In this document: one piece after another, positions 2,881-41,926 of the stretch
How positions within the stretch are numbered: position 1 is the stretch's first letter
How the letters are laid out: each line of letters begins with the position of its first letter
Assembly: GCA_017307865.1 (NCBI GenBank)
Contig: JAFKGE010000042.1
Coordinates: 1-48,300, forward strand
Source of the DNA: Burkholderiales bacterium
Lineage (GTDB): Bacteria > Pseudomonadota > Gammaproteobacteria > Burkholderiales > Burkholderiaceae_C
Reading direction: 5' to 3'
Length of the DNA stretch: 48,300 bases
Program-made: the position numbers and the translations under genes
The notes under the pieces: model-generated
What the model was told of the DNA's origin: nothing
Seen by the model: the letters and a program-made list of their open reading frames with translations, nothing else
Database searches by the model: none

Positions 2881-2930
2881 CAAAATTGCCATCCAGCGCC
2901 CGTCCATCAAGCGCCATCAGCTATCAATTT
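2881..2930 (-). repeat. Family 1 palindromic repeat, upstream of ubiA
   Basis: A well-conserved copy. Its core gcgcccgtccatcaagcgcc is followed by atcagctatcaattt. It matches the copy at 6282-6330 in sequence and orientation and ends 6 bp before the ubiA start codon, so it makes up the immediate 5' region of that gene. Confidence 0.8.
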
Positions 2931-2936
2931 CATTGC

Positions 2937-3815
2937 ATGACCGCCACCGCCCTACCCCGCAGCAAGCTCGCCCAATACCTCGACCTGATCCGCTGGAGCC
3001 GCCCGGCCGGCTGGCTGGTGCTGCTGTGGCCCACGCTGTCCGCGCTGTGGCTGGCGGCGGGCGGCTTTCCGGGCTGGCACCTGCTGATCGTCTTCGTGGC
3101 CGGCACCATCCTCATGCGCTCGGCCGGCTGCTGCGTCAACGATGTGGCCGACCGCGAGTTCGACCGCCACGTCAAGCGCACCGCCAAACGCCCCGTGACG
3201 ACGGGCGAGGTCGGCGTGCGCGAGGCGCTGGCGCTGGGCGCGGTGTTGGCGCTGGTCGCCTTCGCCCTGGTGCTGACCACCAACGCCACCGCCATCGCGC
3301 TGTCGTTTCCGGCGCTGGCCATCGCCCTGGTCTATCCGTTCGCCAAGCGCCACGTGTCCATGCCGCAGGCCGTGCTGGGCGTGGCGTTCAGCTTCGGCAT
3401 TCCGATGGCGTACGCGGCGGTGCAGGGCCGGGTGCCGCCCGAGGCCTGGCTGCTGCTGCTGGGCAACGGCTTCTGGGTGCTGGCCTACGACACCGAATAC
3501 GCCATGGTCGACCGCGACGACGACCTGAAGATCGGCATGAAGACCTCGGCCATCACCCTGGGCCGCTGGGACGTGGCGGCGGTGATGGGCTTTTACGTCG
3601 TCTACCTGGCGGTGTGGCTGGCCATCAGCGCCGCCCGCGCGCCCTCGCCCATCCTGTATGCGGCCTTTGCCCTGGCGGCGGCGCAGGCCGCCTGGCACTA
3701 CACGCTGATTCGCGACCGCACGCGCGAGGGCTGCTTCGTCGCCTTCAGCCAGAACCACTGGCTGGGCGCGACGGTGTTCGCCGGCATCGCGCTGTCGCTG
3801 GCGGTGGCCGGCTGA
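2937..3815 (+). CDS. ubiA: 4-hydroxybenzoate octaprenyltransferase UbiA
   Basis: An integral membrane prenyltransferase that attaches the polyprenyl tail to 4-hydroxybenzoate in ubiquinone synthesis. It has 292 residues and several hydrophobic segments. The two aspartate-rich prenyl-diphosphate/Mg sites are present: [19 protein letters not shown] (about 68-86) and [13 protein letters not shown] (about 184-196). I chose ATG 2937 because the frame upstream to 2850 only translates a family 1 repeat and has no family similarity. The gene ends 3 bp before the convergent proC stop. Confidence 0.95.
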
Positions 3816-3818
3816 ACC

Positions 3819-4652
3819 TCAGGCGCCGAACTCGTCGCCCAGCTCTTTCGCGCGCACGCAGGCCGCGTGCATGGCCTGCACGAAGGCGGCCTTCACGCCC
3901 GCTTGCTCCAGCGCCGTCAGCGCGGCGTAGGTGGTGCCGCCCTTGCTGGTGACGCGCTCGCGCAGGGTGGCCAGCGGCTCGGGCGAGGCGCCCGCCAGAT
4001 GCGCGCCGCCGGCAAAGGTGCCCACCGCCAGGCGGCGCGCCTGCTCGGGGCTCAGGCCCAGCTCGGCGCCGGCCTGCTGCATGGCCTCCAGAAAATAAAA
4101 CACATAGGCCGGGCCCGAGCCCGACAGCGCGGTGACGGCGTCCAGCTGCTCCTCGCGCTGCACCCACAGCGCGTCGCCCGTGGTGCGGATCACCGTCTCG
4201 GCCAGCGCGCGGTCGGCGGCGCCGACGGCGGGGCCGGCAAACAGCCCCGTCATGCCGCGCCCCACCAGCGCCGGCGTGTTGGGCATGCAGCGCACGATGC
4301 GGGCGGCGCCGGTGGCCTTGGCGATGGCGTCGGCGCGGATGCCGGCCATCACCGACAGCTGCAGCGCGCCGCCCACGTGCGGCGCCACCGGCGCGGCGGC
4401 GGCCTGAAAGCTCTGCGGCTTGACGGCCCACACCAGCAGGTCGCTGCCGGCCAGCGCGGCGCTGGCGGCGGGCAGGGCGGTGACGCCATGGTGCTCGCGC
4501 AGCGCGGTGCGCGCCGCCTCGAAGGGCTCGACCACGGCGATCTGCGCCGCCGGCAGCCCGCGCTGGATCAGCCCGCCGAGGATGGCGCTGGCCATGTTGC
4601 CGCCGCCGATGAAGGCGATGCGGGTGGAGGGGGGCAGGGGCTGGTCTGACAT
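3819..4652 (-). CDS. proC: Pyrroline-5-carboxylate reductase
   Basis: It catalyses the last step of proline synthesis, NAD(P)H-dependent reduction of 1-pyrroline-5-carboxylate. It has 277 residues. The dinucleotide-binding motif FIGGGNMA lies near residues 14-21, and VRCMPNTPALVG and the C-terminal ALSGSGPAYVFYFLEA and RERVTSKGGTTYAAL blocks are typical of the family. The ATG at 4652 is chosen because upstream residues have no family similarity. It converges on ubiA and diverges from glpK with 67 bp between starts. Confidence 0.96.
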   Translation of the reverse strand: MSDQPLPPSTRIAFIGGGNMASAILGGLIQRGLPAAQIAVVEPFEAARTALREHHGVTALPAASAALAGSDLLVWAVKPQSFQAAAAPVAPHVGGALQLSVMAGIRADAIAKATGAARIVRCMPNTPALVGRGMTGLFAGPAVGAADRALAETVIRTTGDALWVQREEQLDAVTALSGSGPAYVFYFLEAMQQAGAELGLSPEQARRLAVGTFAGGAHLAGASPEPLATLRERVTSKGGTTYAALTALEQAGVKAAFVQAMHAACVRAKELGDEFGA

Positions 4653-4719
4653 GGCGGCTCGATGCGCTTGAGGTTTGTCCGCAGTGTAGGGCCACGGGCG
4701 TTCCGCTACGCTCGCCGCC

Positions 4720-6255
<1,536 letters not shown>

Positions 6256-6281
6256 GCTGCCCGGGTCCAGGTTTCATGAAT

Positions 6282-6330
6282 AAAATCGGCCCCTGGCGCT
6301 TGTCCATCAAGCGCGAGCAGCTATCAAATA
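6282..6330 (-). repeat. Family 1 palindromic repeat between glpK and glpD
   Basis: One of the best-conserved copies. A perfect 7-bp stem gcgcttg/caagcgc with loop tccat is flanked by aaaatcggcccctg and gagcagctatcaaata. It occupies most of the 90-bp gap between the two glp genes and ends 16 bp before the glpD start. Confidence 0.85.
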
Positions 6331-6345
6331 TATAGTTTATCCGTC

Positions 6346-7947
6346 ATGACCAGCGCCCCTTTGCCCACCGATCGCACCGCCCTGCTGGCGCGCCTGGCCG
6401 AGCCGCTGCGCTACGACCTGGCCGTCGTCGGCGGCGGCGCCACCGGGCTGGGCGTGGCGCTGGACGCGGCCCAGCGCGGCCACCGCGTACTGCTGGTGGA
6501 GGCGCACGACTTCGCCAAGGGCACCTCGTCGCGCGCCACCAAGCTGGTGCACGGCGGCGTGCGCTACCTGGCGCAGGGCGACATCCACCTGGTGCGCGAG
6601 GCGCTGCACGAGCGCGTGCACATTCTGGACAGCGCGCCGCACCTGGCGCAGCCGCTGGCCTTCGTCATGCCCTCGTACAAGCTGTGGGAGACGCCGTTTT
6701 ATGGCGTGGGCCTGAAGATGTACGACCTGCTGGCCGGCCGCGCCGGGCTGGGCGCCACCCAATGGCTGGGCGCGGGCCAAACCCAGCGCCTGCTGCCGGG
6801 CGTGCAGCCGCAGGGCCTGAAGGGCGGCGTCAAGTACTGGGACGGCCAGTTCGACGACGCCCGCCTGGCGCTGGCGCTGGCACGCACCGCCGCCGCGCAC
6901 GGCGCGCTGGCCATCAATTACTGCGAAGCGCTGGAGGTGCTGCACGACGCCGGCCAGGCCGTGGGCCTGCGCCTGCGCGACGCCGAGAGCGGGCGCGAGT
7001 TCCGCGTGCAGGCCGGCTGCATAGTCAACGCCACCGGCGTCTGGGTCGACACCCTGCGCCAGCAGGACGCCCAGTTGGCCGGGCAAAGGCTGGCGCCCAT
7101 GGTCGAGCCCAGCCAGGGCGTGCACGTGGTGGTCGACCAGGCCTTTTTGCCCGGCGAGCACGCCCTGCTGGTGCCCAGCACGCGCGACGGGCGGGTGCTG
7201 TTTGCCGTGCCCTGGCTGGGCAAGCTGATCCTGGGCACCACCGACACGCCGCGCAACGACGTGCCGCTGGAGCCGCGCCCGCTGGCGGCCGAGCTCGACT
7301 TCATCCTGACCGAGGCCGCGCGCTACCTGAAGCGAGCGCCCACTCACGCCGACATTCTCAGCAGCTGGGCCGGTCTGCGCCCGCTGGTGCGCCCCGGCGG
7401 CGACGCCGGCAGCACCAAGTCGATCAGCCGCGAGCACACGGTGCGGGTGGCGCGCTCGGGCCTGGTCACGGTGACGGGCGGCAAATGGACCACCTACCGC
7501 GCCATGGCCGAGGACGTGCTGGCCCACTGCGTGGACAGCGGCCGGCTGGCGGCGCTGGGCCCCTCGCGCACGGCGGGCCTCAAGCTGGTGGGCGCCGACC
7601 TGCCGGCCGGCAGCGCGCCGGTGGCCATCAGCCAGCCGCAGGGCCTGCATTCCTACGGCGCCGAGGCGCCCCAAGTCGCCAGCCTGCCCGGCGCCGAGCG
7701 CCAATTGGCCCCCGGCCTGACCGAGGCCATGGTGCGCTTTGCCGCCCGCCACGAATACGCCCGCACGGTGGAAGACGTGCTGGCGCGCCGCTGCCGCCTG
7801 CTGTTTCTGGACGCCGCCCAGGCCGCCCGCGCCGCCCCCGCCGTCGTCGCCGTGCTGCAGGACGAATTGGGGCGCGATGCGGCGCAGGCCCCCTTCGAGC
7901 AGCTGGCCGCCGCCTACGCGCAACAGGACGCGGCGGCAGGCGCTTGA
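6346..7947 (+). CDS. glpD: Aerobic glycerol-3-phosphate dehydrogenase
   Basis: A membrane-associated FAD enzyme that oxidises glycerol 3-phosphate to dihydroxyacetone phosphate and passes electrons to quinone. It has 533 residues. The FAD Rossmann motif is YDLAVVGGGATGLGVALDA (about 23-41). It is followed by the family signatures GTSSRATKLVHGGVRYL and, near the middle, LGTTDTPRNDVPLEP and AGLRPLVRP. VTVTGGKWTTYRAMAEDV precedes the C-terminal cap. It lies 90 bp after glpK in the same direction, with a family 1 repeat between. The stop codon overlaps the -35 element of the rplN promoter. Confidence 0.96.
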   Translation: MTSAPLPTDRTALLARLAEPLRYDLAVVGGGATGLGVALDAAQRGHRVLLVEAHDFAKGTSSRATKLVHGGVRYLAQGDIHLVREALHERVHILDSAPHLAQPLAFVMPSYKLWETPFYGVGLKMYDLLAGRAGLGATQWLGAGQTQRLLPGVQPQGLKGGVKYWDGQFDDARLALALARTAAAHGALAINYCEALEVLHDAGQAVGLRLRDAESGREFRVQAGCIVNATGVWVDTLRQQDAQLAGQRLAPMVEPSQGVHVVVDQAFLPGEHALLVPSTRDGRVLFAVPWLGKLILGTTDTPRNDVPLEPRPLAAELDFILTEAARYLKRAPTHADILSSWAGLRPLVRPGGDAGSTKSISREHTVRVARSGLVTVTGGKWTTYRAMAEDVLAHCVDSGRLAALGPSRTAGLKLVGADLPAGSAPVAISQPQGLHSYGAEAPQVASLPGAERQLAPGLTEAMVRFAARHEYARTVEDVLARRCRLLFLDAAQAARAAPAVVAVLQDELGRDAAQAPFEQLAAAYAQQDAAAGA

Positions 7948-7972
7948 CCGCTTGCCGCGAATCGGCCATAAT
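7944..7972 (+). promoter_or_regulatory. Sigma70-type promoter for the rplN-secY operon
   Basis: TTGACC (7944-7949) and CATAAT (7967-7972) are separated by exactly 17 bp. The -35 box overlaps the glpD stop codon. Transcription would begin near 7979, giving a leader of about 130 nt before rplN. Confidence 0.75.
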
Positions 7973-8063
7973 CGCGGGCTTCGCCATCACTGGCGGAAGA
8001 ATTTCAGCCCCGCGAAAGCACTGGGCGCCTGGCGACAGGCGTGCAGCGCCGGGCCCAAGACTG

Positions 8064-8088
8064 ATCCGGCTCAATCCTTGAGCCGGAT
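8064..8088 (+). promoter_or_regulatory. Perfect hairpin in the rplN leader
   Basis: An 11-bp perfect inverted repeat (atccggctcaa / ttgagccggat) with a 3-nt loop lies 22 bp before rplN. No T-run follows, so it is more likely a leader element (stability, or ribosomal-protein feedback) than a terminator. Its function is unknown. Confidence 0.5.
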
Positions 8089-8110
8089 GCAAGTTGGGAA
8101 ACATTGAACA

Positions 8111-8479
8111 ATGATCCAGACTGAATCTCGACTCGAGGTGGCCGACAACACCGGCGCCAAGTCCGTCATGTGCATCAAGGTGCTGGGCGGCTCCAAGCGG
8201 CGTTATGCCAGCGTGGGCGACATCATCAAGGTGAGCGTCAAGGAGGCCGCCCCGCGCGGTCGCGTCAAGAAGGGCGAGGTCTACAGCGCCGTCGTGGTGC
8301 GCACCGCCAAGGGCATCCGCCGCGGTGATGGCTCGCTCATCAAGTTCGACGGCAACGCCGCCGTGCTGCTCAACAACAAGCTGGAGCCCATCGGCACCCG
8401 CATCTTCGGCCCGGTCACGCGCGAATTGCGCACCGAGCGCTTCATGAAGATCGTGTCGCTCGCTCTCGAAGTCCTGTAA
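8111..8479 (+). CDS. rplN: 50S ribosomal protein L14
   Basis: 122 residues beginning [20 protein letters not shown], the universal L14 start. [21 protein letters not shown] and a conserved C-terminus follow. It is the first gene of this operon. In most proteobacteria rpsQ precedes it, but here glpD does, so the unit has its own promoter and leader. Confidence 0.98.
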
Positions 8480-8494
8480 GGAAAGGCGCGAGAC

Positions 8495-8812
8495 ATGAAC
8501 AAGATTCGCAAGGGCGATGAAGTGATCGTGATCGCCGGGCGCGACAAGGGCAAGCGCGGCACGGTGTCGCTGCGCGTGGACGCCGATCGCGTGCTGGTCG
8601 ATGGCATCAACCTCGTCAAGAAGCACGCCAAGCCCAACCCCATGAAGGGCGTCCAGGGCGGCATCGTTGAAAAGGCCATGCCGATTCAGCAGTCCAACGT
8701 GGCCATCTACAACAAGGCGAGCGGCAAGGCCGATCGCGTCGGCGTCAAGACGCTGCAGGACGGCACCCGCGTGCGCGTGTTCAAGTCCAGCGGCGAAGAG
8801 ATCAAGGCCTGA
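8495..8812 (+). CDS. rplX: 50S ribosomal protein L24
   Basis: 105 residues beginning [20 protein letters not shown], the KOW motif that binds 23S r[22 protein letters not shown] is typical of bacterial L24. It lies 15 bp after rplN and 8 bp before rplE, with AGGAAAGG-type ribosome sites. Confidence 0.98.
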
Positions 8813-8820
8813 GGTAAACC

Positions 8821-9360
8821 ATGGCACGACTGCAACAACACTACCGCGAAAAAGTGGCGCCCGAACTGATCAAGAAGTTCGGCTACAAGTCGCCCATGGA
8901 GGTGCCGCGCATCACCAAGATCACGCTCAACATGGGCGTGAGCGAGGCCGTGGCCGACAAGAAGATCATGGACAACGCCGTCGCCGACCTGACCAAGATC
9001 GCCGGCCAGAAGCCCGTGGTCACCAAGGCCAAGAAGGCCATCGCCGGCTTCAAGATCCGCGAGCAACAGGCGATCGGCACCATGGTCACGCTGCGCGGCG
9101 CGCGCATGTACGAATTTCTCGACCGCTTCGTTACCGTGGCGCTGCCGCGCGTGCGCGACTTCCGCGGCATTTCGGGGCGCTCCTTCGACGGCCGCGGCAA
9201 CTACAACGTCGGCGTCAAAGAGCAGATCATCTTCCCCGAGATCGAGTACGACAAGGTCGACGCCCTGCGCGGCCTGAACATCTCCATCACGACGACGGCC
9301 AAGAACGACGAGGAAGCCAAGGCGCTGCTCGCGGGCTTCCGTTTTCCGTTCAAGAACTGA
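8821..9360 (+). CDS. rplE: 50S ribosomal protein L5
   Basis: 179 residues. L5 binds 5S rRNA in the central protuberance. The family blocks [38 protein letters not shown] and the end FPFKN are present. In E. coli S8 represses translation at rplE. I did not find an obvious equivalent S8 site here. Confidence 0.98.
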
Positions 9361-9370
9361 GGGTGAACCC

Positions 9371-15446: not shown

Positions 15447-16439
15447 ATGCAAAGCCAATTGCTGAAACCCAAAGCCATCAACGTCGAGCCCCTGGGCGAG
15501 CACAAGGCCAAGGTCACGCTCGAACCCTTCGAGCGTGGCTACGGGCACACCCTGGGCAACGCGCTGCGCCGCGTGCTGCTGTCGTCCATGGTGGGCTATG
15601 CCCCCACCGAGGTGACGATCGCCGGCGTGGTGCACGAATACTCCAGCATCGACGGCGTCCAGGAGGACGTGGTCAACCTGCTGCTGAACCTCAAGGGCGT
15701 GGTGTTCAAGCTGCACAACCGCGACGAGGTCACGCTCAGCCTGCGCAAGGACGGCGAAGGCGTCGTCACCGCGGCCGACATCCAGACCCCGCACGATGTC
15801 GAGATCGTCAACCCGCAGCACGTCATCGCCAACCTGTCGCACGGCGGCAAGCTGGACATGCAGATCAAGGTCGAGACCGGCCGCGGCTACGTGCCCGGCA
15901 CGCTGCGCCGCTACGCCGACGAAGCCACCAAGTCGATCGGCCGCATCGTGCTCGATGCCTCCTACTCGCCGGTCAAGCGCGTCAGCTACGCGGTCGAGAA
16001 CGCGCGCGTCGAGCAGCGCACCGACCTGGACAAGCTGGTGATGGAGATCGAGACCAACGGCGCCATCACCGCCGAGGAAGCCGTGCGTGCCTCGGCCAAG
16101 ATCCTGGTCGAGCAGCTGGCGGTGTTCGCTCAGTTGGAAGGCCCCGAGCTGGGCGGCATCCTGGAGCCCACCCCGCCGCGCGGCGGGCAACAGTTCGACC
16201 CGATCCTGCTGCGTCCGGTCGACGAGCTGGAGCTGACGGTGCGCTCGGCCAACTGCCTGAAGGCCGAGAACATCTACTACATCGGCGATCTGATCCAGCG
16301 CACCGAAAACGAGCTGCTCAAGACCCCCAACCTGGGCCGCAAGTCGCTCAACGAGATCAAGGAAGTGCTGGCCTCGCGTGGCCTCACCCTGGGCATGAAG
16401 CTCGAAAACTGGCCCCCGTCGGGACTGGACAAGCGCTGA
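15447..16439 (+). CDS. rpoA: RNA polymerase alpha subunit
   Basis: 330 residues. The N-terminal dimerisation domain carries [20 protein letters not shown]. The C-terminal domain, which contacts UP elements and activators, carries [20 protein letters not shown] and [20 protein letters not shown] strong ribosome site, gagaggaag, precedes the ATG. The 3' end and stop overlap a half copy of the family 1 repeat. Confidence 0.98.
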
Positions 16440-16460
16440 CAGCTATTGATTTCATAGTAG
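16428..16460 (-). repeat. Partial family 1 repeat at the rpoA stop codon
   Basis: aagcgctgacagctattgat matches the right half of the family 1 consensus (aagcgccagcagctatcaaa). It covers the last rpoA codons and the stop. The left half is missing or is rpoA coding sequence, so this may be a remnant or chance. Confidence 0.4.
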
Positions 16461-16956: not shown

Positions 16957-17033
<77 letters not shown>

Positions 17034-21557: not shown

Positions 21558-22317
21558 CGTAGCGCGGCAGCGTGGCCAGCTGCGGCACGAAGCGCGCGAT
21601 GTTGGCCACGCCCACGCTGTGCGCAAAGTGCTCGAACATCAGCTGGTCGTTGGTCGAGTCGCCCACGTAGACCCAGCGGTCCGTCTCGGCCGCCAGCTCG
21701 CGCCCGAACCGCTCGCGCACGATCCAGCACGCGCCCTGCCACTTGTTGTGCGTGCCGTACCAGCCGTTGATGTGGATGGAGCTGACGGTGGCGTTCATGC
21801 CGGCCGCGTGCATCAGCGCCACGCAGCGGTCGATGGCGGCCTGGGGCAGGTGGGTGAATTCGCTGTGGTCGATGGCGATGTCGCATTCGCGCCCGGCCGA
21901 GTCCCGCGCGCGCCGCGCGCCCGGCACCGTGGCCTCGATCTGGGCCAGCACCTGCTGCATGCGCGCGAAGTGGGCGGCGCGCGTGGCAGCATCTTGTTGA
22001 TATATTTTTGATAGCTGCCTGCGCTTATTGGGCGGGCGCTGGAGGCCTATTTGGCCAATATTCTGCGGAACCAGGGCCACCGCCCCGTTCTCCGCCACGA
22101 TGGCATCCACCGGCCAGTGCGCTGCCATGGGCTCGCTCCAGCCCACCGGCCGACCGGTGATCGGGATGACGTGCAGGCCCGCCGCCTTCAGATCGGTCAG
22201 CGCCTGCAAGGCATCCGGCGTGATGGCGCCGTCGGTGGTCAGGGTGTCGTCGATGTCGGTGAATAGGCCGACGAGGTGCGTCTGCTCGGTTGCAGGCCAG
22301 TCGATCAGGGGTGTCAT
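21493..22317 (-). CDS. HAD-superfamily hydrolase, Cof/sugar-phosphatase type
   Basis: 274 residues. HAD motif I is FTDIDDTLTTDG (D21, D23), motif II is IPITGRP, and motif IV is VGDSTNDQLMFEHF, with a large C2-type cap between. The HINGWYGTHNKWQG region resembles sugar-phosphate phosphatases, but the substrate is not evident. Residues 87-105, between the VAENGAVALVPQ strand and the cap, are encoded by a family 1 repeat (22003-22058), with the frame intact. Its ATG overlaps the stop of the upstream acyltransferase (ATGA). Its 3' end overlaps the convergent membrane-protein gene by 65 bp. Confidence 0.88.
   Translation of the reverse strand: MTPLIDWPATEQTHLVGLFTDIDDTLTTDGAITPDALQALTDLKAAGLHVIPITGRPVGWSEPMAAHWPVDAIVAENGAVALVPQNIGQIGLQRPPNKRRQLSKIYQQDAATRAAHFARMQQVLAQIEATVPGARRARDSAGRECDIAIDHSEFTHLPQAAIDRCVALMHAAGMNATVSSIHINGWYGTHNKWQGACWIVRERFGRELAAETDRWVYVGDSTNDQLMFEHFAHSVGVANIARFVPQLATLPRYVTRGERGAGFAELARVLLRGR
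22003..22058 (+). repeat. Family 1 palindromic repeat inside the HAD gene
   Basis: tttttgatagctgcctgcgc, then a gggcgggcgctggaggccta stretch and ttggcc. It is a strong match to the family and lies fully inside the coding sequence on the opposite strand. It contributes 18-19 residues (GQIGLQRPPNKRRQLSKIYQ). Confidence 0.85.
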
Positions 22318-29361: not shown

Positions 29362-29369
29362 TTCAACCC

Positions 29370-29488
29370 TTCCGAGGAGCGTTGCAGTGCCTCCCGCGCG
29401 CGGGGCACGAGGCTCGGACATTTCATGCAACGACGCTCACCCACGCTGGCAGTGCGGTGAGTGCTTTCCCTCCAAGGCGTGGTTTTTT
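29370..29488 (+). promoter_or_regulatory. SAH riboswitch upstream of ahcY
   Basis: The aptamer (29372-29441) shows the conserved sequence ccgaggagcgttgca, a variable hairpin gtgcc/ggcac (29387-29391 with 29404-29408), ggctcgg, and tgcaacgacgctcacc. Pairings are ccgag with ctcgg (29372-29376/29413-29417) and gagcg-ttgca with tgcaa-..-cgctc (29377-29386/29426-29438). It senses S-adenosylhomocysteine and turns on genes that remove it. In the platform, ggtgagtg (29455-29462) can pair with the aptamer strand cgctcacc. Also ccacgc (29441-29446) can pair with gcgtgg followed by six T (29477-29488), a terminator-like structure. The choice between these is inferred. Confidence 0.93.
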
Positions 29489-29511: not shown

Positions 29512-30950
<1,439 letters not shown>

Positions 30951-30957
<7 letters not shown>

Positions 30958-31008
30958 TTGAATAGCTGCCGGCGCTTCATCCGCGGGCGCCGCAGGCCGC
31001 TTTCGTTT
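30951..31008 (+). repeat. Family 1 palindromic repeat between ahcY and the TlyA-like gene
   Basis: attgaatagctgccggcgct, then tcatccgcgggcgccgcagg. The stem is cggcgc/gcgccg. It begins at the ahcY stop codon and fills the gap to the next gene, supplying its likely upstream region. Confidence 0.75.
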
Positions 31009-31018
31009 AAAAACCGCC

Positions 31019-31882
31019 ATGCGCGCCGACCAGTGGCTGCTCGACCGCGGCCTGGCCGCCAGCCGCAGCCAGGCCCAGCGCCTGCTGGCGGCCGGCGCGC
31101 GCTGGCGCCCGCCGGGCGGCGCCTGGCGCGCCTTGGCCAAGGCCGACGCGCTGCCGCCCGACGCCGAGGTCGAACTGCTGGACGCGGCCGAGGCGCGCTA
31201 CGTCTCGCGCGGCGGCCTCAAGCTGGAGGGCGCGCTGGCCGCCACCGGCCTGCAGGTGGCGGGCTGGCACTGCCTGGACGTGGGCCAGTCCACCGGCGGC
31301 TTCACCGACTGCCTGCTGCAGCAGGGCGCCGCGCACGTGACAGGCGTCGACGTCGGCCACGGGCAGCTGCACCCGCGCTTGCGCGGCGATGACCGGGTGC
31401 GGGTGTTGGAGGGCGTCAATGCGCGGCACCTGCATGCTTCACAATTGATAGCTGATGGCGCTTTCCCAGCGTGCGCTGGAGGCCAATTAGACCCAAAATT
31501 CGAGTTGATCGTCGGCGACCTGTCCTTCATCTCGCTCACCCTGGTATTGCCCGCGCTGGCGCCGCTGCTGGCGCCCGCGGGCCATCTGCTGCTGCTGGTC
31601 AAGCCGCAGTTCGAGCTGCAGCCGGCCGACATCGGCAAGGGCGGCATCGTGCGCGATGCGGCCTTGTACGCGCGGGTCGAGCAGCGCCTGCGCGCGGCCT
31701 GCGCCGACTTGGGCCTGAGGGTGCTGCACTGGCTGCCCAGCCCCATTGCCGGCGGCGACGGCAACCGCGAATTCTTCATTCACGCGGGTGGAGCGGGCGA
31801 CAGGCCAAAACAGCCTCAACAGCCGAACGCAGAGGGCGCAAAGGAATCGCAGAGGACGCAAAAAATTCAAAAAACAAGATGA
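31019..31882 (+). CDS. TlyA-family rRNA methyltransferase with repeat-derived insert and tail
   Basis: 287 residues. An N-terminal S4 RNA-binding domain (RADQWLLDRGLAASRSQAQR) is followed by an FtsJ-like SAM methyltransferase domain: YVSRGGLKLEGAL, CLDVGQSTGGFTDCLL, VTGVDVGHGQLHP, LIVGDLSFISL and LLVKPQFEL. TlyA proteins 2'-O-methylate rRNA. Some are called hemolysins. Residues 141-160 (SQLIADGAFPACAGGQLDPK) come from a family 1 repeat. The family normally ends at GNREFFIHA, but here about 25 more residues follow, residues 267-287 being encoded by a family 3 repeat. Its proximity to ahcY fits SAM turnover. Confidence 0.9.
   Translation: MRADQWLLDRGLAASRSQAQRLLAAGARWRPPGGAWRALAKADALPPDAEVELLDAAEARYVSRGGLKLEGALAATGLQVAGWHCLDVGQSTGGFTDCLLQQGAAHVTGVDVGHGQLHPRLRGDDRVRVLEGVNARHLHASQLIADGAFPACAGGQLDPKFELIVGDLSFISLTLVLPALAPLLAPAGHLLLLVKPQFELQPADIGKGGIVRDAALYARVEQRLRAACADLGLRVLHWLPSPIAGGDGNREFFIHAGGAGDRPKQPQQPNAEGAKESQRTQKIQKTR
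31440..31500 (+). repeat. Family 1 palindromic repeat inside the TlyA-like gene
   Basis: caattgatagctgatggcgc, then tttcccagcgtgcgctggag and gccaatta. A strong match, in frame, in the sense orientation. It sits between the strand carrying the acidic VDV motif and the GDLSF motif of the methyltransferase. Confidence 0.85.
31819..31867 (+). repeat. Family 3 repeat, left copy, encoding the TlyA-like C-terminus
   Basis: Two tandem units of about 20 nt, cgcagagggcgcaaaggaat and cgcagaggacgcaaaaaatt, preceded by aacagccgaa. The first 34 nt are identical to the copy at 48165-48212. It is the left arm of an inverted pair with 31952-32003. Confidence 0.88.
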
Positions 31883-31951: not shown

Positions 31952-32003
31952 TTTTTTTCTGCGCCCTCTGCGATTTTTTTGCGTCCTCTGCGTTCGGCTG
32001 TTC
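31952..32003 (-). repeat. Family 3 repeat, right copy (inverted)
   Basis: Reverse complement of the family 3 unit: ctgcgccctctgcgattttt, then gcgtcctctgcgttcggctg and ttc. With 31819-31867 it forms a long inverted repeat around an 84-bp spacer that could fold into a large stem between the TlyA-like gene and metF. Confidence 0.88.
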
Positions 32004-34788: not shown

Positions 34789-35394
34789 TCAGATGTTCTT
34801 GAAGTGGTCGAAGGGTTCCATGCAGTCCAGGCAGCGGTACAGCGCCTTGCAGGCGGTGGAGCCGAAGTGCGAGATCTCGGTGGTGTTGGCGGAGCCGCAT
34901 TGCGGGCACATCACCACGGGTTTTGAATCAAATGAGGCTCTGGCGCCCGTGTGACAAGCGCCGGCAGCTCTCATGTTGGGAGCAAGGTGGATCACTGCCA
35001 GCCCCTGTGCGCGCAAGTCATCGCGCGTGGCGTGCGGCGGCGCGATGCCCCAGGCGCGCAGCTTTTCGCGCGCGGCCTCGCTCATCCAGTCGGTCGTCCA
35101 GGCGGGCGCCAGCTGGGTCACCACGCGGCCGGCGACGCCCTGGCGCCGCAGGGTGGCGAGGATGTCGGCGTGGATCTGTTCCATCGCCGGGCAGCCGCTG
35201 TAGGTGGGAGTGATGACGACTTCGATCACGCCGTCGTCGCCCACGCGCAGCGCGCGCAGGATGCCCATTTCGCGCAGGGTGACGACGGGGATTTCGGGGT
35301 CGGTCAGCTCGTCGAGTGCGCTCCACAGGGCGGCGAACTCTGGGGCTTTCTCCCTCTCCCTCTGGGAGAGGGCAGGGGTGTTCAACGCTGGCAT
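34789..35394 (-). CDS. paaD: Phenylacetyl-CoA epoxidase assembly protein PaaD, with two repeat-derived segments
   Basis: 201 residues from ATG 35394 (an ATG at 35409 would add five). The DUF59-like core has DPEIPVVTLREMGILR and TPTYSGCPAMEQI. The C-terminal zinc-ribbon has C163, C166, C188 and C191 in CPQCGS and RCLDC, ending FDHFKNI. PaaD probably helps mature the iron centres. Residues 1-16 (NTPALSQREREKAPEF) are encoded by a family 2 repeat. Residues 140-156, just before the first zinc cysteines, are encoded by a family 1 repeat. No start codon avoids the family 2 segment. Confidence 0.93.
   Translation of the reverse strand: MPALNTPALSQREREKAPEFAALWSALDELTDPEIPVVTLREMGILRALRVGDDGVIEVVITPTYSGCPAMEQIHADILATLRRQGVAGRVVTQLAPAWTTDWMSEAAREKLRAWGIAPPHATRDDLRAQGLAVIHLAPNMRAAGACHTGARASFDSKPVVMCPQCGSANTTEISHFGSTACKALYRCLDCMEPFDHFKNI
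34927..34976 (-). repeat. Family 1 palindromic repeat inside paaD
   Basis: atcaaatgaggctctggcgc, then ccgtgtgacaagcgccggca and gctctcat. Stem ggcgc/gcgcc. In frame, between the core domain and the zinc-ribbon. Confidence 0.85.
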
Positions 35395-35445
35395 GGCCGC
35401 GCCCCTCACCCCAGCCCTCTCCCCAGAGGGGCGAGGGAGCCAAAC
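35346..35445. repeat. Family 2 repeat, full two-arm copy between paaC and paaD
   Basis: Left arm ctttctccctctccctctgg... with gggagagggcaggggtg, and right arm cccctcaccccagccctctc, then cccagaggggcgagggag. The arms are inverted relative to each other, about 25 bp apart. It fills the paaD-paaC junction and codes the PaaD N-terminus. Confidence 0.88.
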
Positions 35446-35464
35446 CGGGGGCGCGGATACGAAG

Positions 35465-36304
35465 TCACCACACCGCCCCCGGATGCGCGCGCGCCAGGCT
35501 TTGCATTTCGCCCAGCAGGTAGCTCAGGTGCTCGGAATGCACGCCCTCCTTGCCCTGCGGCACGTAGGCGTCGACGGCGGGCGGGCGCGCGAGCGTGGCC
35601 TCCTGCAGCGCCGCGTCGACGGCGCGCTCCCACGCGGCGCGCAGGGCGGGCACGTCGACGCCGGCCGGCACGGCCTGCGCGTCCACCGCGCTGGCGGTCC
35701 AGAACTCGGCGGTGAAGGGCAGCAAATAATCCACCGCGGCCTGCACGCGGCGGTGCGATTCGTCGGTGCCGTCGCCCAGGCGCAGCAGCCAGTCGCGCGC
35801 GTGGCGCACGTGGTAGCGCACCTCCTTCAGGCTCTTGGCGGCGATGGCGGCCAGGTCGGGGTCGGGCGACTGCGCCAGCCGCTCCCACACCATTTCCATC
35901 AGCGTGGCGTAGAAGAAGTTGCGCACGATGGCGACGCCCCAGTCGCGCGTGCCGCCGGCGGCGGGCACCAGGCCGGGGTTGTGCGGCAGCTCCTGCAGGG
36001 TGTAGTTGCGAAAGTCGCGGTCGTCGCGAAAGTAGGCCAGCGTGTCTTCGGTGATGGGGCCGGCCGGCCAGGCGCTGGGGCGCCGGGTGCGCCCCTCGGC
36101 GTTCAGGCGCGCGGCGGCCAGCTGATACAGCAGGCGCGCCTGGCCGATCAGGTCGAGCGCCTGGTTGGCCATGGCCAGGTCTTCTTCCAGGATGGGGGCG
36201 TGGCCGCACCACTCGGCATTGCGCTGGCCCAGCACCAGGGCGTTGTCGGCCAGGTGCAGCAGGTACTCGACGGAGGCGGCGGCGGGTTTGACGCGCGCGT
36301 CCAT
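35465..36304 (-). CDS. paaC: Phenylacetyl-CoA epoxidase structural subunit PaaC
   Basis: 279 residues. A ferritin-like helical protein without an intact diiron site that pairs with PaaA. VEYLLHLADNALVLGQRNAEW, GHAPILEEDLAMANQALDLI and KEVRYHVRHARDWLLRLGDG are typical. The ATG at 36304 overlaps the paaB stop (TGATG). A GTG one codon upstream is also possible. Confidence 0.96.
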   Translation of the reverse strand: MDARVKPAAASVEYLLHLADNALVLGQRNAEWCGHAPILEEDLAMANQALDLIGQARLLYQLAAARLNAEGRTRRPSAWPAGPITEDTLAYFRDDRDFRNYTLQELPHNPGLVPAAGGTRDWGVAIVRNFFYATLMEMVWERLAQSPDPDLAAIAAKSLKEVRYHVRHARDWLLRLGDGTDESHRRVQAAVDYLLPFTAEFWTASAVDAQAVPAGVDVPALRAAWERAVDAALQEATLARPPAVDAYVPQGKEGVHSEHLSYLLGEMQSLARAHPGAVW

Positions 36305-36603
36305 CACATGTGCCCCACTTCGTCGGGGATGTCGTAGAAGGTCGGGTGGCGATAGATCTTGTCGCTGGCCGGGTCGAACATCAACTCCTTGTCCTCGGGG
36401 TCGCTGGCGGCGATCAGGTGCGAGGGCACGACCCAGATGCTCACGCCTTCCTGGCGGCGGGTGTAGACGTCGCGCGCCATCTGCAGGGCGTGCGCGCTGT
36501 CGCTGGCATGCAGGCTGCCGCAGTGCTTGTGCTCCAGGCCTTGCTTGCTGCGGACAAAGACTTCCCAGAGAGGCCAGTCCTTCAATGCGGGTTGGGTGCT
36601 CAT
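36304..36603 (-). CDS. paaB: Phenylacetyl-CoA epoxidase subunit PaaB
   Basis: 99 residues: [40 protein letters not shown] and WVVPSHLI. It stabilises the PaaAC complex. ATGA overlap with paaA upstream and TGATG with paaC downstream indicates tight coupling. Confidence 0.96.
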
Positions 36604-37628
36604 GCGGCTTCCTTCAAATTGCGTTGTGCTTGCTTGGCGGCGTGCGCGGCGGCGGCCTCGCGCACCCAGGCGCCATCCTCGTGCGCCTTCACGCGGGTGG
36701 CCAGGCGCTCGCGGTTCATCGGGCCGTGGCCGTTGACGACCTGCCAGAACTCGTCCCAGTCGATGGCGCCGTAGTCGTGCTGGCCGCGCGCCTCGTTCCA
36801 TTTCAGCTCGGGGTCGGGCAGGGTGACGCCCAGCACCCGCGCCTGCGGCACGGTGGCGTCGACGAACTTCTGGCGCAGGTCGTCGTTGGAAAAGCGCTTG
36901 ATGCCCCAGCGCATGGCCTGGCCGCTGTGCGGGCTGTCGGCGTCGGGCGGGCCGAACATGGCCAGGCACTTCCACCAGTAGCGGTTGACGGCGTCCTGCA
37001 CCATCTCGCGCTGCGCCTGCGTGCCCTGCATCTGCACCAAGAGCGACTCGTAGCCCTGGCGCTGGTGAAACGACTCTTCCTTGCACACGCGCACCATGGC
37101 CCGGGCATAGGGGCCGTAGCTGCAGCGGCACAACGGGATCTGGTTCATGATCGCCGCGCCGTCCACCAGCCAGCCGATCACGCCCACGTCGGCCCAGCTC
37201 AGGGTGGGGTAGTTGAAGATGCTGCTGTACTTGGCGCGGCCGCTGTGCAGGCCGTCCAGCATCTCGGCGCGGGAGGTGCCCAGGGTTTCGGCGGCGCTGT
37301 ACAGGTACAGGCCGTGGCCGCCCTCGTCCTGCACCTTGGCCAGCAGGATGGCCTTGCGCTTGAGGCTGGGCGCGCGGCTGATCCAGTTGCCCTCCGGCAG
37401 CATGCCGACGATTTCGCTGTGCGCGTGCTGGCTGATCTGGCGCACCAGGGTCTTGCGGTAGGCGGCGGGCATCCAGTCGCGCGGCTCGATGCGGCCGTCG
37501 GCGTCGATGCGGGCGTCGAAGCGCGCCTGGTGCGCGGCGTCTTCGGCCGGCACCGCCTGCACGGCGGCCTTGGGCGTGCCGGGCTTGGCGTCGCTGTCGT
37601 CGGGGACGGAAAAGGACTGGGTGTACAT
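36600..37628 (-). CDS. paaA: Phenylacetyl-CoA epoxidase catalytic subunit PaaA
   Basis: 342 residues. A diiron oxygenase that epoxidises the ring of phenylacetyl-CoA. Two ExxH iron motifs are visible: [20 protein letters not shown] and [35 protein letters not shown] is conserved. It is first in the paaABCDE operon. An operator-like palindrome lies 48 bp upstream of the start codon. Confidence 0.97.
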
Positions 37629-37675
37629 GGACGGGTCTCCGTTGGGGGCTGGCGCTCGTCAAGTGTAGATGAATT

Positions 37676-37691
37676 GACCGACCAGTCGGTC
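37676..37691. promoter_or_regulatory. TetR-type operator palindrome upstream of paaA (PaaR-like site)
   Basis: gaccgac-ca-gtcggtc is a perfect 16-bp palindrome. It resembles the accgacc..ggtcggt sites attributed to PaaR, the TetR-type repressor of phenylacetate genes in betaproteobacteria. No TetR-type gene is in the window. Confidence 0.6.
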
Positions 37692-37736
37692 GAGGAATTC
37701 TGCTGCCTGCGCGTTCGCCCTTGCAGCGGCAATTAC

Positions 37737-37755
37737 ATCACAAAAAATATGTGAT
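37737..37755. promoter_or_regulatory. Second palindrome in the divergent paaA / oxygenase region
   Basis: atcaca-aaaaata-tgtgat lies in an AT-rich patch (37737-37795) that contrasts with the flanks. It may bind a different regulator, for example the PaaX-like protein encoded downstream. The same patch holds ttgatt and taaagt with 17-bp spacing as a weak candidate promoter for the rightward genes. Confidence 0.4.
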
Positions 37756-37851
37756 TTGTTGATTATTTGTAATATGACGAATAAAGTCGAGTTTCAGGCA
37801 GTCAATGTCATGTAAACGCCTGAACCCACCCATCACAGCCAGGAGACCCGC

Positions 37852-38880
37852 ATGTCCGCCCACAAGGAACGCTTTGCCGACAAGATGGAACTGCCGCCGG
37901 CCACGCCGCAGCCCAACATCTACCCGCTGTCGTGGCACAGCAAGACCAAGAAGCTGCAGGAGGTGTGGGAAGCCTCGCTGCGCGAGGCCTGGGAGCCCGA
38001 GAAGCTGCCCTGGGACACGCTGGACGTGGACAGCTATTCGTGGGAAGAGCGCGAATCCATCGCCTACTGGTGGACGCTGCTGTCGGTGTTCGACGCCTCG
38101 GCGCCGCCGGTGTTCGCCGAAGCGCTGATCAAGACCTACGAGGTGCACGAGGAAGACCCGGTGCGCAAGTGCTTCTTCTCGGTCACGCGCGACGAGCAGA
38201 ACCACGAGATCATGTGCGGCCAGGCCATCACGCGCATGCTGGGCCACCCCGACCCGCTGAGCTACCAGCCCAAGACCGAGCTGGGCCGGCGCCTGCAGAA
38301 AAACGCCCAGTGGCTGTACTTCAACGGCGGGCGCTACTGGACGGGCTACAAGCAGGCCGTGCCCAGGTACGACCTGGCGGTGCTGTTCAGCTCCTTCCTG
38401 ATGGGCGAGATCGCGGCGGCCACCATCTTCAAGCAGATGTACGAGAGCGCGCGCGAGCCGGTGTTCAAGGAAGCGTTCAAGAACATCGGCCGCGACGAGG
38501 GCCGCCACATGGCGATCTGCATGGCCGTGATGGAGCGCGACTACCCGGGCCTGAAGGACGCCGACAAGGCCATCGTCACCAAGCAGATCCGCGCCGGCTA
38601 CCTGTTTTTGTCGGCCGTGCTGTTCGAGCCGCCGATGGAGTTCTGGGACCTGCCGGCCGACTTCATCGACAACCAGCGCGAGGCCGAGGAAGTGGCGCGC
38701 GGCGCGGGTTTCGGCATCCCCAGCTACGAGATGAAGAAGGAAAACTGGCGCAACGCCATCATCAACCTCAAGGGCGTGCTGGACCGCTACGACATCCCGT
38801 TCCCGGCGATTCCCGAGGTGGGCATCACCGGCCAGGAAGTGTCGGACGCCGACATGGACGACATCATCCCGGTGTTCTGA
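37852..38880 (+). CDS. Ferritin-like diiron oxygenase (R2-like), substrate unknown
   Basis: 342 residues, mainly helical. The diiron ligands can be laid out as E90 (or E97), E115-x-x-H118 (TRDEQNHE), E186 (LMGEIAAATIF) and E216-x-x-H219 (GRDEGRHMAI), the ribonucleotide-reductase-small-subunit-like pattern. No radical-transfer features of class I R2 were recognised, and no large reductase subunit is nearby. The next gene, 4 bp downstream, is a ferredoxin reductase, so this is probably a two-component oxygenase. It diverges from paaABCDE, suggesting an aromatic or acyl-CoA substrate. I do not recognise a named enzyme. ATG 37852 follows caggagacccgc. Confidence 0.85.
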   Translation: MSAHKERFADKMELPPATPQPNIYPLSWHSKTKKLQEVWEASLREAWEPEKLPWDTLDVDSYSWEERESIAYWWTLLSVFDASAPPVFAEALIKTYEVHEEDPVRKCFFSVTRDEQNHEIMCGQAITRMLGHPDPLSYQPKTELGRRLQKNAQWLYFNGGRYWTGYKQAVPRYDLAVLFSSFLMGEIAAATIFKQMYESAREPVFKEAFKNIGRDEGRHMAICMAVMERDYPGLKDADKAIVTKQIRAGYLFLSAVLFEPPMEFWDLPADFIDNQREAEEVARGAGFGIPSYEMKKENWRNAIINLKGVLDRYDIPFPAIPEVGITGQEVSDADMDDIIPVF

Positions 38881-38884
38881 CGAC

Positions 38885-39937
38885 ATGTCGCGCGTCACCA
38901 TCCAGCCCTCGGGCAAAAGTGTCGAGGTCGCCGCCGGCGACACCGTGCTGATGGCGCTGGAAAAGGCCGGCTACGCCCTGCCCAACAACTGCCGCGCCGG
39001 CGCCTGCGGCGAGTGCAAGGTCAAGGTGCTGGCGGGCGAGTACGACCAGGGCATGGTGCTGGACATGGCGCTGTCGCACGAGGAGCGCTGCGACGGCTTC
39101 GGCCTGATGTGCATGGCCAAGCCGACCACCGACGAGCTGGTGATCGAATGGGGCACGGCCGACGCGCGGCCCAAGCTGTTTCCGCCGCGCGAGAACGCGC
39201 TGTTCGTCGTCACCGACAAGCGCCCGGTGGCCGCGCGCGCCATCGAGCTGCACCTGCGCCCGGTGGGCCAGCCGATCCGCTACTGGCCGGGCCAGTACGT
39301 GACCGTGGGCGATCCGTGCGGCGGCGTGCCGGCGCGGGCTTATTCGATCAGCAACGCGCCGCGCCCCGACGGCGAGCTGGTGCTGCAGGTGGCGCGCGCC
39401 GACGGCGGCCTGACCAGCGCCTGGATCCACGACCGGCTGGCGGTGGGCGAGAGCATCAAGATCAGCGGCGCCTACGGCACCTTCATCGGCGATCCGGCCG
39501 TGGACACGCCGGTGCTGTGCCTGGCCGCCGGCACCGGCCTGGCACCCATCCTGGCGCTGACCGAGGCGGCGCTGCGGCGCGGCTTTCGCAAGCCCGTCAT
39601 GCTGCTGCTGTCGGCGCGCACGCGCGAGGACGCCTACGCCCAGGGCCTGATGGCCTGGTGGCGCACCAAGCACCGCAACTTCGACTATCGTGTCACGCTC
39701 ACGCGCGAGCAGGCCGAGGGCTTTCTGCACGGCCGCGTCGACGCCGTGCTGCCCGGCCTGCTGCCCAACCTGGCCAGGCACACGGTGTTCGCCGCCGGCA
39801 GTCCGGAGTTCACGGCCAGCTGCGTGGAGACGGCCAAGGCGCTGGGCGCCGGCGCCGACATGATCTACACCGAAGGATTTTTCGCCATGCAGCAACCCAC
39901 CGTCGCCGACCGCGAGCACCTGTTGCCCCATCCATGA
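38885..39937 (+). CDS. Ferredoxin-NAD(P) reductase, probable partner of the diiron oxygenase
   Basis: 350 residues. An N-terminal plant-type 2Fe-2S domain with C36, C41, C44 and C76 (NNCRAGACGECKVKV and LMCMAKP) precedes an FAD domain with RAYSISNAPRP and an NAD domain with CLAAGTGLAPILAL. The domain order (ferredoxin first) is the reverse of PaaE, so the two are not recent duplicates. It should shuttle electrons from NAD(P)H to the diiron protein encoded 4 bp upstream. Confidence 0.93.
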   Translation: MSRVTIQPSGKSVEVAAGDTVLMALEKAGYALPNNCRAGACGECKVKVLAGEYDQGMVLDMALSHEERCDGFGLMCMAKPTTDELVIEWGTADARPKLFPPRENALFVVTDKRPVAARAIELHLRPVGQPIRYWPGQYVTVGDPCGGVPARAYSISNAPRPDGELVLQVARADGGLTSAWIHDRLAVGESIKISGAYGTFIGDPAVDTPVLCLAAGTGLAPILALTEAALRRGFRKPVMLLLSARTREDAYAQGLMAWWRTKHRNFDYRVTLTREQAEGFLHGRVDAVLPGLLPNLARHTVFAAGSPEFTASCVETAKALGAGADMIYTEGFFAMQQPTVADREHLLPHP

Positions 39938-39995
39938 GCGCGCCGGGCCGCTCCCAAGCGCGAATCCCGCAGCGCGCAGCGCGGAGGGTCGTCCA

Positions 39996-40985
39996 GTGAG
40001 GCGCACCGCCGCGTCGGCCGCCGAGCTGGCGCGCGCGCGCATCGACGCGCACCGCCAGCAAAGCCGCGTGCGCGCCGGCGCGCTCATCATTTCGCTGTTC
40101 GGCGATGCCGTGGCGCCGCGCGGCGGCCGGCTGTGGGTGGGCAGCCTGATCCGCCTGCTGCAGCCGCTGGGCATCGACGAGCGCCTGGTGCGCACCGCCG
40201 TCTCGCGCCTGGCCAAGCAGGCCTGGCTGCGCATCGAGTCGCATGGCCGGCGCGCCGACTACCTGCTGACCGAGGCCGGCCAGCGGCGTTTCGAGGAGGC
40301 CTCGCGCACCATCTACGCCGCCCAGCCGCGCGCCTGGGACGGGCGCTGGCGCCTGCTGCTGCTGGTGCGCGAGCTGCACGCCAAGGCGCGCGAGCCGCTG
40401 CGCCGCGCGCTGGCGTGGCAGGGCTTCGGCCAGCTGGGGGCGGACTGCTTCGTCCACCCCGGCGCCGATCTGGGCGAGGCGCTGCAGGCCCTGGTCACGG
40501 AGGGCCTGGCCGAGGCGCCGGCGCAGCTGCTGCCCCTGCTGGCCAGCGACGCGCGCCACGGCTTGGGCCAGAGCGACGCCGAACTGGTGCGCCGCGCCTG
40601 GAATCTGGATGAGCTGGCCCAGGCCTACAGCCGCTTCGACGCCGACTATGGCCCCATCGCGCGCGCGCTGCAGGCCGACGAAGTGGGCCAGGCCATCACG
40701 CCGGAAGACGCCTTCCTGCTGCGCACCTTGCTGATCCACGACTGGCGGCGCCTGCTGCTGCGCGACCCGGAGCTGCCCGACGTGCTGCTGCCGGCCGGCT
40801 GGCCCGGCCGCGCGGCGCGCCAGCTCACGCGCGAGCTGTATCGGCGCCTGCTGGCGCCGTCCGAGCGGCATCTGGACGCGCTGCTGCAGCGCGCCGACGG
40901 GCAGCCGCTGCCGCCGCCCGACGCCGCCAGCCGGCAGCGCTTCGGCGGCGCCCGCGGTGGTGCTCAGCCGGCGTCCACCGTGTAG
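39996..40985 (+). CDS. PaaX-family transcriptional regulator
   Basis: 329 residues from GTG 39996, with ggagggtcgtcca upstream. The N-terminal winged helix (RAGALIISLFGDAVAPRGGR, LWVGSLIRLLQPLGIDERLV, RTAVSRLAKQAWL) and C-terminal PaaX domain are clear. PaaX in E. coli represses phenylacetate genes and is relieved by phenylacetyl-CoA. Here the gene sits behind the oxygenase/reductase pair and may control that pair, paaABCDE or both. Its last 22 bp overlap the convergent rlmJ. Confidence 0.9.
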   Translation: MRRTAASAAELARARIDAHRQQSRVRAGALIISLFGDAVAPRGGRLWVGSLIRLLQPLGIDERLVRTAVSRLAKQAWLRIESHGRRADYLLTEAGQRRFEEASRTIYAAQPRAWDGRWRLLLLVRELHAKAREPLRRALAWQGFGQLGADCFVHPGADLGEALQALVTEGLAEAPAQLLPLLASDARHGLGQSDAELVRRAWNLDELAQAYSRFDADYGPIARALQADEVGQAITPEDAFLLRTLLIHDWRRLLLRDPELPDVLLPAGWPGRAARQLTRELYRRLLAPSERHLDALLQRADGQPLPPPDAASRQRFGGARGGAQPASTV

Positions 40986-41926
40986 CCCTGTCCGCGGCCG
41001 CGGCCCAGAACCTGCACCACGGCGGGCAAGGCGTCGCGCAGTGCGGGGGCCAGGGTGTGCGGCGGGTTGATGACGAACATGCCGCTGGCGCTCAGGCCGG
41101 GCGCGCCGCCAGGCGGCACGCCGATGTGCAACGTGGCGTGCAGCCAGTCGCGCCCGGCCTGCTGCGCCAGCGTTTTCAGGCGGCGCGGCAGGGCGTGCGC
41201 CTCGGGCCGCGCGATGATGGGGTACCAGACCGCATAGACGCCGGTCACGAAGCGCTTGAGACCGTCTTGCACGGCGGCAGCCACCTTGGCGTAGTCGCTC
41301 TTGATTTCGTAGCTTGGGTCGATCAGCACCAGCGCGCGGCGCGAGCCGCCGGCGGCCGCCGGGGGCGGCAGCAGCGCCTTCAGCGCGGCAAAGCCGTCCT
41401 CGCGCGCCATGCTCACCTGGCGGCCGGCGCCCAGCTGCGCCACGTGCGCCTGCAGCGCCTGCCAGTCGGTGGGGTGCAGCTCGAACAGGCGCAGGCGGTC
41501 GTGCACGGCGGCGCGCCCGGGCTCGCTCATCAGCGCATGCAGGATCAGCGGCGAGCCCGGGTAGACCTTCCAGGCCGCGCCCGGCGCCGCGCTGCGGTTG
41601 AAGCCGGCGATCAAGCGCAGGTAGTCCTGCAGGATGTTCGCTTCTGAATCAATAGCTGCTTGCGCTTGATCCACGCCGGCTGCAGCCACATTTGTCTTGA
41701 AATCGGTCGCCAGCGCCGCCTGCAGCCGCGCAATGCCCGCCAGCGCCTCGCCCGAGGTCTGCGCCGCCTGGTCGTCCAGGCGGTAGATGCCGGCGCCGGC
41801 GTGGGTGTCGATCAGCGTCAGCGCCCCGCTTTTTTGCATCAGGTGGCGCGCGGTGGCGATCAGCACGAGGTGCTTGAGCACGTCGGCGTGGTTGCCGGCG
41901 TGAAAGGCGTGGCGATAGCTGAACAT
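40964..41926 (-). CDS. rlmJ: 23S rRNA (adenine-2030-N6)-methyltransferase RlmJ
   Basis: 320 residues beginning MFSYRHAFHAGNHADVLKHL. The SAM site is LIDTHAGAGIY. The catalytic motif reads DPSYE where E. coli has DPPYE. VWYPI and SASGMFVINPP follow. Residues 76-94 (KTNVAAAGVDQAQAAIDSE) are encoded by a family 1 repeat, placed between the SAM-binding motif and the helical RNA-binding part. The frame is intact. Confidence 0.95.
   Translation of the reverse strand: MFSYRHAFHAGNHADVLKHLVLIATARHLMQKSGALTLIDTHAGAGIYRLDDQAAQTSGEALAGIARLQAALATDFKTNVAAAGVDQAQAAIDSEANILQDYLRLIAGFNRSAAPGAAWKVYPGSPLILHALMSEPGRAAVHDRLRLFELHPTDWQALQAHVAQLGAGRQVSMAREDGFAALKALLPPPAAAGGSRRALVLIDPSYEIKSDYAKVAAAVQDGLKRFVTGVYAVWYPIIARPEAHALPRRLKTLAQQAGRDWLHATLHIGVPPGGAPGLSASGMFVINPPHTLAPALRDALPAVVQVLGRGRGQGYTVDAG
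41645..41700 (+). repeat. Family 1 palindromic repeat inside rlmJ
   Basis: gaatcaatagctgcttgcgc, then ttgatccacgccggctgcag and ccacatttgt. The outer stem gctgc/gcagc is kept. It lies antisense to the gene, in frame. Confidence 0.82.

Follow-up and report, generated by a model that had tools for sequence, protein, structure and literature searches.

A dispersed repeat of about 66 bp located at gene 3' ends and in frame within protein genes of a Burkholderiales bacterium

Introduction

The 48,300-nt window analysed here (the whole stretch from position 1 to 48,300 of contig JAFKGE010000042.1, assembly GCA_017307865.1, from a Burkholderiales bacterium, hereafter the host) contains a palindromic repeat that lies between genes and also inside reading frames. 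This raises the question of what kind of element can sit within protein genes and leave them readable. An earlier note on this DNA had proposed that the repeat is or was mobile and survives in protein loops. We propose, with a probability that we put at roughly 0.7, that it is an old, dispersed, hairpin-forming family of ~66 bp belonging to one bacterial family, which has a habitat like that of the repetitive extragenic palindromic sequences (REPs) and coding copies like those of the Rickettsia palindromic elements (RPEs).

The repeat and its copies

Searching the window for the core TTTGATAGCTGCNNGCGCTT, with up to 3 mismatches, yielded 8 matches, as compared to a mean of 0.05 in 100 shuffles, which never gave 8. 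Seven of these matches correspond to copies named before and the eighth, at 48221, to a doubtful copy. A sequence-only profile (R1), built from 48 aligned copies and used on the window with filters off, found seven strong copies (all E ≤ 3.7e-15) at the places given by the earlier note, two weaker ones (in glpK and at the rpoA end) and a doubtful one. The seven strong copies match R1 by construction, because they are among its 48 building sequences. The matches independent of the training set are the rpoA end (1.8e-7), the degenerate glpK copy (4.6e-6), previously regarded as probable, and 48218-48266 (0.002). The copies are as follows:

2872-2934, minus strand: intergenic copy ending right ahead of the likely ubiA start; R1 E-value 1.3e-16; strict core present
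4905-4947, minus strand: degenerate copy in glpK (4720-6255, plus strand), antisense to the gene; R1 E-value 4.6e-6
6276-6337, minus strand: intergenic copy after the glpK stop codon; R1 E-value 1.7e-17
16409-16459, minus strand: partial copy spanning the stop codon of rpoA (15447-16439, plus strand); R1 E-value 1.8e-7; absent from the earlier note
21998-22061, plus strand: in-frame copy, antisense, in a HAD-IIB hydrolase gene; found by R1
30950-31014, plus strand: intergenic copy at the ahcY/tlyA junction; found by R1
31435-31499, plus strand: in-frame copy in tlyA (31019-31882, plus strand), sense; found by R1
34919-34984, minus strand: in-frame copy in paaD (34789-35409, minus strand), sense; R1 E-value 3.7e-15
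41640-41704, plus strand: in-frame copy in rlmJ (40964-41926, minus strand), antisense to the gene; found by R1
48218-48266, plus strand: degenerate copy after the end of a gene, doubtful; R1 E-value 0.002 only

As first noticed from the letters, the reading frames stay open through the copies whether the repeat is sense (tlyA, paaD) or antisense (HAD gene, rlmJ, glpK) to the gene.

The repeat exceeds genome-wide expectation, a check that had been asked for: the exact 14-base core GATAGCTGNNNGCGCTT has 57+62 = 119 matches in the host genome, as compared to 0 for the reversed control, and R1 finds at least 150 matches (E ≤ 4.7e-10). The core occurs in 63 of 299 genomes of the host's bacterial family, in 37/141 genera, with 13 to 227 matches each in the 31 genomes later used as the copy-bearing set; across the 299 genomes the reversed control matched just once. 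Outside the family, a slightly different core was searched in 387 genomes of the order, and the single matches found in each of two of them do not rise above the reversed control (8 matches). A scan of named genomes returned at least 115 stretches with the core; the 80 listed titles include Acidovorax, Comamonas, Ottowia, Polaromonas, Diaphorobacter, Simplicispira, Giesbergeria and Melaminivora, genera that we take to be Comamonadaceae, together with several unclassified assemblies. An apparent replication-strand bias was dismissed, as the all-plus look came from the listing order and the full list of genome G295 is mixed on both strands.

Aligned on the GATAGCTG anchor, 123 distinct strict copies have information that exceeds the background roughly between −13 and +51, i.e. 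a unit of ~66 bp, 14 columns of which are fixed by the search pattern itself, instead of the ~50 bp first estimated. As these 14 positions lie in the left half, a better conservation of that half is not claimable from the strict set. As a further correction to the earlier description, the repeat is an imperfect palindrome in the host genome, with a right arm that differs from copy to copy and is mostly GGGCGC or AAGCGC. Among the first 100 of the 148 matches, the left/right arm pairs include TT/GG (35), TT/AA (18), CC/GG (1) and CC/AA (1). Typical copies are asymmetric and not flanked by terminal inverted repeats. The consensus arms pair and the copies fold better than their flanks; among the 261 pairs of given and complementary strand that differ in folding, the given one lies lower in 169, mainly via G-U pairs, these cases not being independent since the copies share ancestry.

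Habitat at gene ends

The main habitat of the repeat is the 3' end of genes, a strong tendency that the earlier note did not report. Junctions were called in four genomes (the host, or G000, and G015, G283 and G295) with a codon-usage score, which is no gene finder and for which 26 stretches of the window, i.e. the host only, served as training set. Of the 171 junctions with both neighbours called, 48 are convergent, 4 are divergent and the other 119 are tandem. Convergent and divergent junctions being necessarily equally frequent in a genome, the 48 versus 4 distribution (p ~1e-10 under equal expectation) indicates a strong 3'-end preference. The upstream stop codon lies mostly within ~25 bp of the repeat edge, and often within the repeat. 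The tandem junctions, divided by copy orientation (56 versus 63), reveal no orientation preference relative to transcription. An asymmetry between the strands that is unrelated to transcription would suit an element that, like REPs, is recognised in the form of a single-stranded hairpin.

It could alternatively be, with rather less than even odds, that the intergenic copies are a selected functional 3'-end element (an mRNA 3'-end stabiliser, a termination aid, or a nucleoid/gyrase-type binding site) and the coding copies accidental leftovers. The excess of convergent junctions agrees with this possibility, and so does the ahcY-tlyA junction, which bears a copy in 7 of the 21 genomes listed: fetched without the motif, it has the core AGCTGNNNGCGCTT intact in 7/7 species with a copy, whereas the in-gene tlyA copies beside it retain an intact GCGCTT in only 2/8. 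This contrast, seen at one junction only, would agree with noncoding copies being under selection or being renewed time and again. However, the copy that lies ahead of tlyA in another upstream context, in genome G312, has lost GCGCTT; the copies have no orientation preference; the Rfam search of the window found no family matching the repeat; the consensus is devoid of a terminator U-run; and most genomes of this bacterial family lack the repeat, which is therefore not generally needed.

Copies within genes

A copy was counted as embedded, by a first rule, if the frame is open and coding-like on both sides. In the host this holds for 11 of the 94 strict copies and for 7 of 40 further copies selected with the profile, and a second rule gives 12/128. 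Elsewhere, the first rule yields 4/39 in G015 (one being a tlyA locus fetched for that gene) and 5/36 in G283, and the second 1/38 in G015, 6/38 in G283 and 1/56 in G295. An embedded copy contributes some twenty residues to the protein and leaves the gene readable. That these copies lie within real protein genes, as had been claimed for the window, was confirmed by NCBIfam/Pfam, which named the following host carriers: ParC, ThiD-ThiE, ParB, EarP, MurU, an HpaG of the N-terminal type, PurL, CobQ, AtuA, ProA, a DAO oxidoreductase, a GMC oxidoreductase, a carboxyltransferase C_D/A_B protein, a Methyltransf_28 protein, a DUF3418 protein and an HI0933-like protein. Counting HAD, TlyA, RlmJ, PaaD and GlpK of the window, the host total is 21 carriers; a uvrA copy, open in both the host and G015, failed the rule in the host and was left out.

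The 11 embedded strict copies use five of the six frames, and the sixth is closed in 83/83 non-embedded strict copies. The peptide lies between two domains in ThiD-ThiE, the carboxyltransferase C_D/A_B protein, CobQ and AtuA, and within the N-terminal domain in ParB. The inter-domain position in these four proteins would support the proposed survival in loops. In PurL (L346), a second stretch, EYQIGLKRALIKRRRLSQEQQ, looks by eye like a degenerate translation of the same repeat, and accounts for about +6 residues relative to the Salmonella protein.

Insert-free orthologues were compared for rlmJ, tlyA and parB, and the other genes with family models only. The R1 profile recognises an in-gene copy in 7/26 tlyA, 7/30 rlmJ and 7/29 parB loci. 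RlmJ has 30 residues in the host where E. coli RlmJ has 9, and of the 16 genomes of other families in which RlmJ was matched, 11 have alignments that flank the insert on either side yet skip it. The ParB loop comprises 25 residues in the host and several species of its genus, and 7 to 11 in G005, G006, G299, G007, G318, G003 and G004; it is longer (29 to 32 residues) in G001, G002 and G310, where R1 sees no copy in the gene, so that loop length alone is not diagnostic. The TlyA site spans 108 nt in nine genomes listed, including G318, which has no recognisable core, 84 nt in G302 and G309, and 66 to 69 nt in G322 and G321. At the same site, the TlyA proteins of G311, G146 and G312 (L168, L169, L170) have a far longer insert, which is acidic and unrelated in sequence.

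In PaaD, 171 residues align with 145 positions of TIGR02159 (+26); GlpK gains 7 residues over the best solved GlpK, PurL gains 7 over its family model, and the gain is about 0 in EarP and the Methyltransf_28 protein. As the net gain is not always 22 residues, either the repeat often took the place of an existing loop or the loop was shortened afterwards; the earlier note did not report that several of the proteins gain fewer than 22. The expectation that orthologues lack the repeat-encoded residues is borne out by E. coli RlmJ, the 11 RlmJ matches of other families and the short-loop ParB proteins.

These data bear on the possibility that the residues are ancestral in the proteins and the DNA likeness is due to convergence or chance. 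We found nothing in its favour and regard it as practically negligible, given the excess of core matches over the shuffles in the window and over the reversed control in the genome, the residues missing from E. coli RlmJ and most RlmJ matches of other families, and the unrelated peptides yielded by five of the six reading frames; for rlmJ and parB (30 versus 9 residues, and 25 versus 7 to 11) it was ruled out.

Age and probable past mobility

The inserts are old and common to species of the genus, another point not made previously. In the strict samples of the four genomes (94, 56, 39 and 36 copies in G000, G295, G015 and G283), the closest pair has an identity of 82%, 80%, 82% and 80%, respectively; no pair exceeds 82%, i.e. 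no recent burst was seen, and since strict selection inflates identities the copies are if anything more diverged. Several coding copies are common to some species of the host genus and missing from others; the HAD gene copy has an orthologous copy in G015 (blastn pairing), and the PurL copy apparently occurs, by eye, at the same place in G283, which belongs to another genus.

The repeat was probably mobile in the past. Only this half of the original statement (mobile or once mobile) stands; as regards present mobility, all pairs in the strict samples are at or below 82% identity, and no target-site duplication is evident. Indeed, no such duplication above background was detected in 311 copies, the largest excess being 0.058 where the kind of size expected is 0.034, with no single-boundary peak. 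It is therefore improbable that the repeat is a miniature inverted-repeat transposable element (MITE) moved by a conventional DDE transposase, the more so as typical copies are asymmetric and not bounded by terminal inverted repeats, even though G295 has a few longer inverted pairs, with opposite-strand cores 65 bp apart at two places; a full-length parent element was not searched for.

As for a REP-associated tyrosine transposase (RAYT), Y1 genes of this type occur in 26/31 copy-bearing and 12/14 copy-free genomes. The sole Y1_Tnp gene found in the host (L061) is flanked by GGGGTCAGATC motifs, and many of its relatives have similar flanking motifs. In 6/30 loci the Y1 gene is closely followed by a repeat copy with at most 2 mismatches, not beyond the general 3'-end habit. 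A RAYT as mover is thus unsupported, Y1 genes being as common without the repeat as with it, and the host gene having another motif.

Other features of the window

A second repeat family, of the AACGCAGAGGGCGCAAAGG type, lies at 31818-31865, 31955-32003 and 48164-48214. It occurs at the tlyA end and encodes the TlyA C-terminal tail NAEGAKESQRTQ, which was matched elsewhere in the host genome, in G313 and in G314. A third repeat, with the palindrome CCCTCTCCC...GGGAGAGGG, lies at 2798-2836, 35342-35380 and 48260-48298. Peptides resembling its translation (LTPALSPEGRG) occur inside the host ThiD-ThiE and CobQ proteins, so that more than one coding repeat family may exist in the host. The window also contains an S-adenosylhomocysteine riboswitch (RF01057) upstream of ahcY (29368-29445), and a tRNA gene (16957-17030).

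Origin of the repeat

We propose that the ~66-bp repeat would once have been a non-autonomous element that increased in number, most likely by way of single-stranded hairpins on which an enzyme of the REP-moving kind acted in trans. Its copies may have landed or survived preferentially just after stop codons. Those falling in genes would have been kept only in loops or linkers, and only where an open frame of the repeat met the frame of the gene, and the coding peptide would then drift with its host protein under a constraint of little more than an open frame.

Several observations weigh against this proposal. First, no moving enzyme was linked to the repeat, five copy-bearing genomes have no Y1 match, and the host Y1 gene is flanked by a motif other than the repeat. 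Second, target-site duplications did not rise above background in the 311 copies. Third, the hairpin is weakly supported in the host genome, where RNAalifold predicts just 3 pairs, covariation is no higher than in shuffles and the mean folding z is only −0.85. Fourth, no clean 66-bp insertions are demonstrable, as relatives are too diverged and some proteins have no net gain. Fifth, the embedded share varies with the criterion (12/128 in the host by the second rule; 1/38 versus 4/39 in G015; 1/56 in G295).

A bolder and rather unlikely extension is that a family of free-living bacteria possesses a protein-invading repeat of its own, a lasting source of new loops, linkers, C-termini and perhaps gene fusions, the noncoding copies following a lineage-wide consensus as though they were still being edited by a trans-acting factor or by gene conversion. 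It draws on the inter-domain sites in ThiD-ThiE, CobQ, AtuA and the carboxyltransferase C_D/A_B protein, on the stop codons supplied to many upstream genes, and on the paired changes between AAGCGC and GGGCGC that the right arm undergoes at orthologous sites.

Comparison with known systems

The earlier note knew of no coding repeat family described in this order, and our literature searches likewise found no description of such a family in this bacterial family or order, nor any occurrence of the repeat motif strings in the papers of the open literature searched. The family reported here, which numbers at least 150 copies per genome, occurs in culturable bacteria and has some twenty in-frame cases in the host (including parB, parC, purL, proA and murU), makes the uptake of repeat DNA by proteins testable at the bench. 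It also means that loop insertions in proteins of this bacterial family may be remnants of repeats, not adaptations. The Wolbachia palindromic elements are similar dispersed palindromic repeats, some of which lie in frame in genes.

In PMC10969869 and PMC3733652, protein-coding palindromic repeats have so far been treated as peculiar to obligate intracellular alphaproteobacteria. The RPEs described there are dispersed palindromic repeats of ~150 bp in ten families, nearly half of them in open reading frames, some being in frame in unrelated metabolic genes that are still apparently functional. Like the RPEs, the present repeat has many dispersed copies, some in frame in unrelated conserved genes, and orthologues without the insert (rlmJ, tlyA, parB). 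Unlike them, it is ~66 bp long, belongs to another bacterial class (by the names of its carriers), has about 1 in 8 host copies embedded, prefers 3' ends and uses five frames; we take it to be another sequence, a comparison that rests on descriptions of the RPEs.

The enterobacterial RU and ERIC repeats, small intragenic MITE-like repeats with repeat-derived reading frames within genes according to PMC2759123, are longer (103-168 bp) and have other hosts. REPs are portrayed, in PMC12306157, as short imperfect hairpins of high copy number near gene ends, with a length of 20-40 bp given in PMC3733652. The present repeat strongly prefers gene 3' ends but has a minority of intragenic copies; it is longer than REPs, not strictly extragenic and without a RAYT link. 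By analogy of behaviour, the repeat may be said to work like RPEs and to sit like REPs.
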